Position numbers and translations under genes: made by a program
Notes under the pieces: model-generated
Seen by the model: the letters and a program-made list of their open reading frames with translations, nothing else
Told to the model about the DNA's origin: nothing
Database searches by the model: none
NCBI RefSeq assembly: GCF_003046545.1
Contig: NZ_QAAA01000013.1
Coordinates: forward strand, 1 to 64,000
Source: Rhodovulum imhoffii
Lineage (GTDB): Bacteria; Pseudomonadota; Alphaproteobacteria; Rhodobacterales; Rhodobacteraceae
Direction of reading: 5' to 3'
DNA length: 64,000 bases
Shown: piece after piece, positions 2,359 through 59,612 of the stretch
How the letters are laid out: each line of letters begins with the position of its first letter
Numbering within the stretch: the stretch's first letter is position 1

Positions 2359-4521
2359 TCAGCCGAATGTCTCTTCAAAGCTTCCGCGGTAAAGGGCGGA
2401 CAAGTCCGTCAGCGGGGCCTCGTGGCCGCCGAAGCTGACGGTGTCGCCCCCGAACTTGCCGACGGTTTCCAAATGTACACCGGCCTGCCCCGCCGCAACC
2501 ATAAGGGCTTCGGCCGCATCGAAAGAACAGGCGATCAGATAGCGGCCCTGATCCTCACCAAAGAGCGTGGGCGTGTCTGATGCCTCCAGATGTATGCCCA
2601 AGCCTGCGGCTTCTGCCATCTCGAATGCCGCGAGCGCGAGCCCGCCGTCCGACAAATCCGTTGCGGCAGCGATCCAGGCGCGGTTCTCGCGGATGAAGAT
2701 ACCGTTGCGGCGTTCTGTCTCCAGGTCCACATGGGGTGCATCGCCGTCCTCACGGTTGAAGACCTCGTAGAGCAGGGCGGATTGCCCCAGATGCCCGGTC
2801 GTTTTTCCGACCAGAAGTGCCAGAAACCCGGCCTGGGGCTGACCGGAGATCAGGTCGTCGAGGCTTTCCAGCAGGCCGACCGCCCCGATCGTGGGGGTGG
2901 GCAGGATCGGCGTGCCGTCGGTTTCATTATAAAGCGAGACGTTGCCCGACACGATCGGCATGTCCAGTGCCTTGCAGGCGGCGCCGATGCCCTGGATGGC
3001 CCCCACGAACTGGCCCATGATCTCCGGTTTTTCGGGGTTGCCGAAATTCATGTTGTCCGTGGCGGCCAGCGGCCTTGCGCCGACCGCGCAGAGGTTGCGA
3101 AACGCCTCGGCTACGGCCTGCTTGCCGCCCTCCCTCGGGTTGGCGCGTACGTAGCGGGGCGTGACATCGGCGGTAAAGGCCAGCGCCTTTTGCGTGCCGT
3201 GCACGCGCACGACGCCAGCGCCAAGGCCGGGACGGCGCACGGTGTCGGCCATCACCTGGCTGTCGTATTGTTCATAGACCCACTGCCTGGCCGCATGGTT
3301 GGGGCTGGCGATCAGCGCCTTGAGACCATCCACCGGGTCGATTCCGGGGACATCTTCCATTTCCGGGGCAGGGGGTGTTTCCACCCACGGGCGGTCGTAT
3401 TCCGGTGCATTGCCCGACAACGCCTTGAGCGGCAGGCTCGCTTTTTCCTCGCCGTTGTGGAGGATGAGGAAACGATCTTCGCTTATGGTTTCGCCGACGA
3501 TGGCGAAGTCCAGATCCCACTTGTCGAAAATCGCCTTTGCCTCTGCCTCTTTCTCGGGGCGCAGGACCATCAGCATGCGTTCCTGGCTTTCCGAAAGCAT
3601 CATTTCGTAGGCGGTCATGTTTTCTTCGCGGCAGGGCACGCGGTCGAGATCGAGCCGTACGCCAAGGTTGCCCTTGTCGCCCATCTCCACCGCCGAGCAG
3701 GTCAGCCCCGCAGCGCCCATGTCCTGGATGGAGATCACCGCGCCGGTGGCCATCAGTTCAAGGCAGGCCTCCATCAGGCGTTTCTCGGTGAAGGGATCGC
3801 CGACCTGAACCGTGGGGCGCTTTTCCTCGATGCCGTCGTCGAACTCCGCGCTGGCCATCGTGGCGCCGCCGACGCCATCGCGTCCGGTCTTGGCCCCGAG
3901 ATAGACGACCGGCATGCCCACGCCGCTGGCGGCGGAGTAGAAGATCTTGTCCGCATCGGCCAGACCGGCGGCAAAGGCGTTCACAAGGCAGTTGCCGTTA
4001 TAGGCCGGGTGGAACCGGACTTCGCCGCCCACGGTGGGTACGCCAAAGCAGTTGCCGTAGCCGCCGATGCCTTCGACCACGCCATGCACAAGCTGGCGGG
4101 TCCTGGGGTGGTCCTTTTCGCCAAACGACAATGCGTTCATCGCCGCGACAGGGCGGGCGCCCATGGTGAACACGTCGCGCAGGATGCCGCCCACGCCGGT
4201 GGCCGCGCCCTGATAGGGCTCGATATAGCTGGGATGGTTGTGGCTTTCCATCTTGAAGACCACGGCCTGCCCGTCGCCGATATCCACGACCCCCGCGTTT
4301 TCACCGGGCCCGCAAATGACCTGCGGGCCTTCGGTTGGCAGGCTGCGCAGCCATTTCTTCGATGATTTGTAGGAACAGTGTTCGTTCCACATCGCCGAAA
4401 AGATGCCCAGTTCGGTAAAGGTCGGTTCCCGGTTCAGAAGGCGCAGAATTTCCGCGTATTCCTCGGGCTTCAGGCCATGGGCCTCGATCAGCTCTTCGGT
4501 GATGTTCGGCTCAGCTGTCAT
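2359..4521 (-). CDS. purL: Phosphoribosylformylglycinamidine synthase subunit PurL
   Basis: A 720-residue small-type PurL, the ATP-dependent amidotransferase core that makes FGAM in de novo purine synthesis. Visible signatures are [15 protein letters not shown] near the N-terminus, the [19 protein letters not shown] catalytic/ATP region, and [17 protein letters not shown] in the first AIRS-like half; the second half repeats the fold ([21 protein letters not shown]). Length is that of PurL proteins that work with separate PurS and PurQ, neither of which is in the window. It is the first gene of purL-bolA-grxD on the minus strand. Confidence 0.97.
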
Positions 4522-4660: not shown

Positions 4661-4687
4661 AAAAAAAGGCCGAGACGAGTCTCGGCC
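4661..4687 (-). terminator. Rho-independent terminator
   Basis: Minus-strand reading gives GGCCGAGACTCGTCTCGGCC followed by TTTTTTT: nine GC-rich pairs and a seven-base U tract. It could end lysR (stop at 4812) but also lies at the right place to end a short independent RNA starting near 4730. On the plus strand there is no U tract after the stem, so it acts in one direction. Confidence 0.85.
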
Positions 4688-4730
4688 CAAGTCCAACAGG
4701 GAGGTAAAGGTGAAAAATGCACCTTCCATT
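4661..4730 (-). ncRNA. Candidate trans-acting small RNA with anti-Shine-Dalgarno motif and intrinsic terminator
   Basis: On the minus strand, between lysR and purL, a short transcript can be drawn from about 4730 to 4661. It ends in a perfect 9-bp hairpin (GGCCGAGAC/GTCTCGGCC, 4668-4687) followed by seven T residues. The 5' part forms a hairpin AAGGTG/CACCTT (4707-4725), followed by single-stranded ACCTCCC, which is complementary to ribosome binding sites. A CTTG-N15-CCCCATAT element (4762-4736) resembles a heat-shock sigma promoter at the right distance. CCTCCC-bearing small RNAs are known in alphaproteobacteria (suhB/alpha-r14 and CcsR types); membership is untested. Confidence 0.5.
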
Positions 4731-4811
4731 CGGAAATATGGGGGCAAGCGGGGTAACGCAAGACAAATTTCCCGGAATGGTTGCAAATCCGCTATGATTT
4801 TAATGCATAGC

Positions 4812-58553: not shown

Positions 58554-59612
58554 ATGTATCGCAGAACCTTCCTGACCTCGGGCGCGGGCCTGACGGCGGC
58601 GTTGGCGGCTCCGGCATTGGCCAGCGGCAAGATCCACTGGAACCTGCCCACGGCGTTTCCCAAGAATGCTCCCGGTGTGGGCACCAATGTCACCACCTTT
58701 GCCGAGCGCGTTGCGGCGATGTCCGGCGGGCGGCTGACCTTTACCGTTTATGGCGCGGGGGAACTGGTGCCGCCTTTCGCGGTTGAGGATGCCGTTCAGC
58801 AAGGCAACGCGCCGGTGGGGCACGGGCCGACCTATTACGCCGCAGGCAAGAACCCGGCCCTGCACTGGTTCACGGGGGTGCCCTTCGGGATGACGTCGCA
58901 AGAGCATTACGCTTGGCTGCGCTGGGGCGGCGGGCAGGCGGTCTGGGATGAGATTTACGCCCAGCGAAACCTCAAGCCGATCTATTCGGGGAACTCGAAC
59001 ACCCAGTCGGGGGGATGGTTCAAGACCCCGTTGACGTCGGTGGCCGACCTGAAAGGGCTTAACATCCGCGTGGCCGGACTTGGGGGGGAAATCTACCGTA
59101 AGCTGGGAGCCAACGCGGTACTGATGCCGCCGCCGGAGATTTTCCAGGCGCTGCAATCGGGGGCGATCGATGCGGCCGAATGGGTCGGGCCTTACCTGGA
59201 TCAGGCGTTCGGTCTGCAAAAGATCACGCAGAATTGCTATGTTCCGGCGTTCAACGAACCCGGTGCCGGCGTGGCGGTGATCTTCAACACCGGCGCCTGG
59301 GCAGAACTTTCGCCCGATCTTCAGGCGATTTGCGAGTCCGCCGCGCTGACCGCCGCGTTGGAGATGCAGGCGCAGTTCGACTATTTCAATACCAGATCCA
59401 TGGCGGAGCTGAAAGCGCAGGGCGTGCAGTTCCGCCCCTTCCCGGAGGATATCGTGGCGGGGATGCGCACGGCCTGGGCCGAGGTGCGGGATGAACTGAC
59501 AACCGCCAATCCCGATGTGGCGAAAGTGCGTGAAAGCTACGATGCCTATCTTGCCGATGCCACGGCCTACGCCGCTGACATGAGCTTGCCGCTGCTGACC
59601 GGGCGTCGGTAA
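58554..59612 (+). CDS. dctP: TRAP transporter substrate-binding protein (DctP/TakP-like)
   Basis: A 352-residue periplasmic binding protein with a Tat-like signal (MYRRTFLTSGAGLTAALAAP). Sequence such as WNLPTAFPKNAPGVG, VYGAGELVPPFAVEDAV and GHGPTYYAAGKNPALHW fits the TakP group that binds 2-oxo acids or similar carboxylates. GAGAGGA precedes the ATG at 58554. No membrane subunits follow; the orphan dctQM at 45.2-47.2 kb are a candidate partner. It is divergent from the kinase gene, so the two-component system may control it. Confidence 0.9.
   Translation: MYRRTFLTSGAGLTAALAAPALASGKIHWNLPTAFPKNAPGVGTNVTTFAERVAAMSGGRLTFTVYGAGELVPPFAVEDAVQQGNAPVGHGPTYYAAGKNPALHWFTGVPFGMTSQEHYAWLRWGGGQAVWDEIYAQRNLKPIYSGNSNTQSGGWFKTPLTSVADLKGLNIRVAGLGGEIYRKLGANAVLMPPPEIFQALQSGAIDAAEWVGPYLDQAFGLQKITQNCYVPAFNEPGAGVAVIFNTGAWAELSPDLQAICESAALTAALEMQAQFDYFNTRSMAELKAQGVQFRPFPEDIVAGMRTAWAEVRDELTTANPDVAKVRESYDAYLADATAYAADMSLPLLTGRR

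Follow-up and report, generated by a model that had tools for sequence, protein, structure and literature searches.

A SorY-type anti-Shine-Dalgarno small RNA beside an LsrB-like LysR gene in Rhodovulum imhoffii and its possible correspondence to the LsrB/VtlR-AbcR locus

Among the described small RNAs (sRNAs), the closest to the one considered here is SorY of Rhodobacter sphaeroides, which is reported to have its own start and to remain unprocessed, to interact with Hfq, to target the takP mRNA, and to stand under sigma factors at the level of RpoE, RpoHI and RpoHII (PMC8307010, PMC6238624). SorX also carries an anti-Shine-Dalgarno (anti-SD) linker between two hairpins; it comes from another locus and is reported as an RNase E product of the 3' UTR of an OmpR-like gene (PMC6238624). 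An anti-SD core between two hairpins is likewise found in suhB (RF00519, with SisA-D), which Rfam describes as mmgR. MmgR is reported to be the same as alpha-R8, and most species are reported to carry alpha-R8 beside a gene for N-formylglutamate amidohydrolase (PMC12559287).

The other system of interest is that of the AbcR RNAs (ar15, RF02345) in Rhizobiales. In A. tumefaciens, abcR1 and abcR2 are reported to lie directly downstream of vtlR, and VtlR binds PabcR1, where its box reads GCAT-N3-TG-N3-T (PMC7486931). In S. meliloti, PabcR1 is described as carrying both T-N11-A and GCAT-N3-TG-N3-T, with the box at -61 to -49, AbcR1 as dependent on LsrB and AbcR2 as dependent on RpoH1 (PMC8844928); no LsrB effect on AbcR is reported in S. 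meliloti 1021 (PMC7486931), and the published LsrB control of AbcR is disputed because these two accounts conflict. AbcR is said to have a CUCCCA loop (PMC5461406), and an RNA model from S. meliloti in which two variable hairpins flank a CUCCCUGU linker (PMC3927594) resembles in layout the RNA studied here. The structure of A. tumefaciens LsrB is reported as PDB 9HH1, and the same source calls LsrB unique to Rhizobiales (PMC11975290), while the order trxB-vtlR has been called conserved in the class (PMC7486931). Up to now, SorY has been studied in photooxidative stress and AbcR in nutrient uptake and host interaction, the two separately from each other.

We analysed a stretch of 64,000 nucleotides from Rhodovulum imhoffii, referred to below as the window. 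The analysis confirms, at the level of prediction from sequence, a short gene for an anti-SD sRNA with an RpoH-type promoter at 4661-4762 on the minus strand, located between a LysR-type gene and purL, both of them on the same strand (Table 1). An initial annotation had pointed to this element; the LysR gene and a dyad lie just outside 4661-4762 and went unremarked there.

Table 1. Features of the sRNA locus in the window and the evidence on which each assignment is based
Feature	Position	Strand	Basis
Predicted SorY-type sRNA, ~66 nt	4661..4726	-	Rfam SorY/SorX/suhB alignments; model R1, 60.1 bits; CTTG spacing
5' hairpin AAGGTG-N7-CACCTT	4707..4725	-	window z -3.2; hairpin near CCTCCC in 66/69 loci
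Linker with anti-Shine-Dalgarno ACCTCCCTGTTGGACTT	4688..4705	-	CCTCCCTGTTGGAC in 71/71 loci, chosen by SorY match
Intrinsic terminator: 9-pair stem, 4-nt loop, T run	4661..4688	-	terminator pattern search
RpoH/sigma-32-like promoter CTTGCG-N13-CCCCATAT	4736..4762	-	sequence; CTTG-dyad spacing same in relatives
Predicted LsrB/VtlR-type LysR operator, dyad GCTATG-N9-CATAGC	4791..4811	-	one mismatch to GCYATGC-N7-GCATRGC
LysR-type regulator, 302 aa	4812..5720	-	Pfam HTH_1 and LysR_substrate; best A. tumefaciens LsrB match here
purL, downstream neighbour, synteny marker	2359..4521	-	NCBIfam PurL 975 bits, cut-off 648

Read on the minus strand, CTTG stands at 4762-4759 and CCCCATAT at 4743-4736, a combination that comes near the sigma-32 consensus. 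A search for sigma-70 promoters at the sRNA locus gave none. The 5' end is expected at about 4726, plus or minus some 5 nt, namely at the start of CTTG plus 36, the offset at which SorY of R. sphaeroides has its mapped start, and the length of about 66 nt follows from this. The hairpin has arms of 6 bp (4725-4720 and 4712-4707), ACCTCCC occupies 4705-4699, and the terminator stem at 4688-4667 is followed by seven T. The initial annotation had described an RpoH-like CTTG promoter, an RNA of about 70 bases opening with a hairpin, a near-ideal terminator and the stretch CTCCCTGTTGGACTTGGG, and all of these are present on the minus strand, with the reservation that the terminator pattern by itself barely exceeds chance (one found, 0.5 expected). 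The RNA folds more stably than its shuffled versions (z -3.69), only 1 of 200 shuffles being equally stable. As for the ACCTCCC that was said to be exposed, the motif is there and its exposure has to be qualified, because the fold changes with the true 5' end: if the RNA starts at 4732 or is shorter, the 5' hairpin is formed and ACCUCCC is partly accessible (per-base probability of being unpaired 0.22-0.98), whereas an RNA that starts at 4734 or is longer takes up another fold, in which most of the motif is paired (0.06-0.91).

Family scores and gene order make it nearly certain that the window RNA is SorY. Under relaxed thresholds the Rfam model of SorY (RF02651) aligns over its full length with 50.6 bits (E 2.5e-9; cut-off 111), and the Rfam scan of the locus gives no family at its own cut-off. 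When the same model was applied to 244 genomes of the order, 241 had a match, and only one of them, G094, exceeded the Rfam cut-off. A covariance model built from 27 relatives with the window excluded, called R1, recognizes the window with 60.1 bits (E 6.1e-13) and finds it as the only match at E<=0.001 in its own genome. The SorY match in G094 starts at 1,632,645 of its contig and the SorY start of R. sphaeroides is reported as mapped at 1,632,642 (PMC6238624); from this fit we infer that G094 is that R. sphaeroides strain. There the sRNA (locus L002) is flanked on the same strand by lysR upstream, 76% identical to that of the window, and by purL downstream (85%). The window RNA is thus like R. 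sphaeroides SorY in the gene order lysR-sRNA-purL, the CCUCCCUGUUGGACUUgGGCCGAG core, the hairpin-linker-terminator layout and the CTTG promoter element at conserved spacing; it differs in the shorter 5' hairpin (6 bp) and in its length, about 66 nt where the SorY model has 83 positions. The sRNA itself is of a known kind, seen in another genome. In two of the three genomes of the order without a SorY match (G110, G227), inspection found the RNA after the LysR gene. The third, G232 (L284), keeps the LysR gene and has neither sRNA nor dyad within 1500 nt downstream nor a SorY match genome-wide, which is possibly a natural loss.

Conservation was read in 71 loci (the window, 30 and then 40 relatives), all of them chosen by SorY match. 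The string CCTCCCTGTTGGAC followed by a T run occurs in every one of them, LysR is the next gene upstream, in the same orientation, in 67, and purL is inside the fetched stretch in 35. The four exceptions to the LysR position are L162, which stops at a contig end, two genomes of one genus with LysR about 1.4-1.5 kb upstream, and L163, with LysR about 6 kb away on the opposite strand. A hairpin ending within 5 nt of CCTCCC was found in 66 of 69 loci, with a mean z of -3.56 when each sequence is folded singly; across relatives its sequence varies freely and the hairpin itself is kept. RNAalifold on a MAFFT alignment recovered the terminator and a tiny hairpin, without covariation and without the 5' hairpin, so the support for the latter is that of single-sequence folding.

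The LysR protein of the window reached no NCBIfam model at its cut-off. Its closest solved structure is PDB 9HH1 (E 1e-74), the next being at 3e-27. When LsrB was searched back, the highest score in the Rhodovulum imhoffii genome went to the window gene (254 bits; next 86) and in G094 to the gene adjacent to SorY (251 bits; next 126). LsrB and the window LysR are reciprocal best matches, where the forward search covered PDB and the genomes of the class. Such matches in Rhodobacterales, as far as protein similarity can tell, do not agree with a restriction of LsrB to Rhizobiales as stated in PMC11975290. The redox cysteines of LsrB, C144 and C273, are found in 75 and 63 of 79 Rhizobiales proteins, respectively, and in none of 65 Rhodobacteraceae proteins, and therefore redox sensing by the window LysR, if any, would work differently; another cysteine, at window residue 191 and at neither LsrB redox-cysteine position, is present in 48 of these 65. 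Upstream of the window lysR there is a divergent gene for indolepyruvate ferredoxin oxidoreductase, and not the trxB order described in PMC7486931.

The dyad GCTATGCATTAAAATCATAGC comes immediately after the lysR stop codon, at 4811-4791 on the minus strand, and we consider it likely that the adjacent LysR controls SorY through this predicted operator. The upstream sequences of the relatives have in common the block AGCYATGCR-N5-YGCATRGCGGNMATGC, and for scoring we used the consensus GCATAGCGGNCATGC with 14 specified bases. At least 10 of the 14 are found in 68 of 70 loci, as against about 2 per 70 in shuffles, a test that is partly circular because the consensus was drawn from the same related sequences; L159 scores 8, one further locus scores 9, and L162 is too short to score. 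The spacing of the predicted dyad and its transfer to other groups are not subject to that circularity. The T and A of the LysR-type T-N11-A are invariant in 69 aligned sites. Viewed as a motif, the LsrB/VtlR box is conserved in T-N11-A and also in GCAT-N3-TG-N3-T, with two departures: most relatives carry GG or AG in place of TG, and the window carries TCAT in place of GCAT. The dyad pattern with at most one mismatch outnumbers its reversed control in all eight genomes compared. Two further exact copies of GCYATGC-N7-GCATRGC, which may be LysR sites as well, occur in G094 (contig C4, 692796 and 1512647).

Alternatively, SorY could be driven by RpoH sigma factors alone and the dyad could serve lysR itself or some other purpose. 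The literature searched, so far as its accessible text goes, gives RpoHI/RpoHII control of SorY without a LysR, and the redox cysteines of LsrB are lost, both of which fit such a reading. We nevertheless hold it to be unlikely, in view of where the dyad stands. The distance from GCAT to CTTG is 36 nt in 54 of 69 loci and 35 nt in ten, the window being among those with 35, so that the dyad keeps 35-36 nt from the -35 element in 64 of 69, although its distance to the core CCTCCC ranges from 93 to 112. In L163, the dyad stays with the sRNA although LysR is some 6 kb off. Moreover, the site is of the same kind as the LsrB/VtlR box reported at PabcR1.

With LysR control as the preferred reading, the locus would work as follows. 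A stress sigma factor of the RpoHI/RpoHII type would read SorY from its own promoter, and the LysR, as the LsrB/VtlR ortholog of Rhodobacterales, would most likely activate it via the dyad at 4791-4811. The RNA would offer ACCUCCCUGUU, between its two hairpins, to the Shine-Dalgarno regions of target mRNAs, most likely those of nutrient transporters, and lower their translation or stability. As to targets, Shine-Dalgarno pairing of the sRNA with 12 DctP genes could not be distinguished from that with other genes, and takP was not singled out among them. The pattern complementary to the linker, with at most two mismatches, was found 56 and 51 times in the own genome against 69 and 48 for the reversed control, which is no clear excess. 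The window itself contains a TRAP-type DctP gene at 58680-59495 on the plus strand, whose Shine-Dalgarno pairing with the sRNA is unremarkable.

What makes the locus of wider interest is its resemblance to the AbcR locus. Like AbcR1/AbcR2, the window sRNA is directly downstream of an LsrB/VtlR ortholog on the same strand, behind a predicted operator of the same kind, and has an anti-SD stretch; the action on transporter mRNAs and the LsrB and RpoH1 inputs reported for AbcR would be further points of likeness. We examined 80 named LsrB loci of Rhizobiales, looking for the AbcR core within 3 kb, a different core from that of SorY because the AbcR linker differs. It is found downstream of LsrB in 72 loci and missing within 3 kb in eight, and Rfam ar15 matches were obtained in 8 of the 9 loci scanned. 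With an operator matrix trained on Rhodobacteraceae sites alone and 100 shuffles per locus, 54 of the 72 prove to have a site before AbcR with p<=0.01, a figure that does not count independent events because the loci are related; many of the 18 that miss are of Mesorhizobium type. Compared with SorY, the distance between site and promoter is shorter by about one helical turn: in 28 of 67 boxed loci TTG[AC] follows 26 nt after the box, and in 30 there is no TTG[AC] in the range searched. AbcR is unlike SorY also in its length of about 112-121 nt (112 positions in ar15), in an anti-SD placed in the loop and in a GUUCCC linker, and in that the two inputs are split between two siblings. Altogether we regard it as rather likely that SorY is the counterpart of AbcR, a correspondence that rests on the locus and the operator because the RNAs differ and the SorY-like core occurs in none of the 80 Rhizobiales loci. 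By RNA sequence alone the link is weak, because R1 matches one AbcR at E 5e-4 and chance terminators come to 0.002; ar15 is absent from the Rfam matches of the window up to E 10.

SorY and AbcR might instead be unrelated anti-SD RNAs that were placed separately downstream of the same LysR and have converged in layout. Little sequence is common to the two, and anti-SD RNAs recur elsewhere, such as the alpha-R8 reported by the N-formylglutamate amidohydrolase gene (PMC12559287). We think such convergence improbable, considering that strand, position and operator are all alike and that RNAs of intermediate form exist in other families of the class. A LysR match was obtained in 233 of 289 class genomes, and 66 loci were read among the roughly 150 best matches listed (26 and then 40, going down the list); those passed over include G487 (contig end) and G503 (genus of G279). 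An RNA with CCTCCC and a terminator within 1500 nt after LysR is found on the same strand in 43 of the 66 and on the opposite strand in none, 23 being without one, and since the loci were read from the top of the list these counts hold for its more LsrB-like end. In 42 of the 43 RNAs CCTCCCTG is present and in 32 the hairpin loop is CTCCCAGACG, so the class RNAs have in one molecule a CUCCCA loop like that of AbcR and a CCUCCCUG linker like that of SorY. The operator matrix reaches p<=0.01 upstream of 20 of these 43 sRNAs, and 23 have no significant site. With R1, E values between 5e-6 and 1e-3 are obtained for several of the class RNAs. When 16 class loci were scanned against Rfam with relaxed thresholds, a single RNA reached the SorX cut-off (47 vs 46.6), the others being below cut-off or unmatched. 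The form with CUCCCA loop and CCUCCCUG linker is seen in many other families; for the most part, the copies in the loci scanned fail to reach the cut-off of any Rfam family, and a family model may therefore be missing. Examples of sRNAs with the CTCCCAGACG loop and the CCTCCCTG linker are L047 (some 314 nt downstream of the LysR gene), L062 and L049. Tandem RNAs after one LysR, like the AbcR1/AbcR2 pair, are seen as well, three in L060 and two each in L039 and L043.

Common ancestry being preferred to convergence, we propose that an LsrB-type LysR, its operator and a same-strand anti-SD sRNA form a module that would be the Rhodobacterales version of the LsrB/VtlR-AbcR locus. LysR and RpoH inputs would be joined on the one SorY promoter, where S. 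meliloti divides LsrB and RpoH1 between AbcR1 and AbcR2. What the sequences show is the match to SorY, the synteny, a dyad kept at fixed spacing, the kept hairpin and the linkage throughout the class; LysR binding and activation, the targets in Rhodovulum imhoffii and the common descent of SorY and AbcR are what we infer here. The explanation as a whole, that is, a SorY ortholog with RpoH and LysR inputs and as counterpart of the LsrB/VtlR-AbcR module, is on balance the one we favour. With a similar degree of assurance, we incline to the broader view that SorY and AbcR go back to one ancestral alphaproteobacterial anti-SD riboregulator, switched by LysR via T-N11-A and integrated with RpoH in Rhodobacterales. 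What may be new here is the shared LysR-operator-sRNA module. A link between SorY and AbcR was not found in the literature searched, which left out most subscription journals, so it may be in print elsewhere; publications naming SorY together with LysR appear to be incidental mentions. If the two are one locus-defined family with the same LysR, what is learned about the operator, the signal and the transporter targets would become transferable across the class, and the description of LsrB as unique to Rhizobiales (PMC11975290) would need revision.

Two remaining readings concern the RNA itself and are both very improbable. The initial annotation placed it among anti-SD RNAs of the suhB/CcsR type, which is right as to kind; suhB is not the closest family. 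The covariance search with RF00519 which it suggested gives a full-length alignment of 33.1 bits (E 3.8e-5), the one point in favour of suhB/MmgR, and this misses the cut-off (41) and ranks third, behind SorY and SorX, the gene order is SorY's rather than one linked to the amidohydrolase gene as reported for alpha-R8 (PMC12559287), and a suhB search of the own genome gave only a weak second match. The label suhB/alpha-r14 mixes names, because suhB is described as mmgR, mmgR as alpha-R8, and the latter as belonging to that other locus. Family matches do exist, a lack of which would have counted against the annotation, though all below Rfam's own cut-offs. Equally remote is the reading of the element as merely the terminator and 3' UTR of lysR without an RNA of its own: it is on the lysR strand, with some 110 nt between the coding region and its core, and SorX is reported as a 3'-UTR product (PMC6238624), but linker, hairpin and promoter spacing are conserved and R. 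sphaeroides SorY is described as unprocessed with its own start (PMC8307010, PMC6238624).

SorX (RF02784) also aligns with the window RNA over its full length, and with 41.6 bits (E 8.2e-9, relaxed thresholds) against a cut-off of 46.6 membership in this family was rejected, as was that in suhB/MmgR. In the own genome, the second suhB match (L033) and two weak SorX matches (L225, L226) were set aside, since they resemble other terminators, with R1 scores of 22.9, 22.3 and 19.8 bits. In L226, at about 1510-1545 on the minus strand, CCTCCC stands shortly before a GC-rich hairpin at a gene end, with a SorX score of 26.2 bits.
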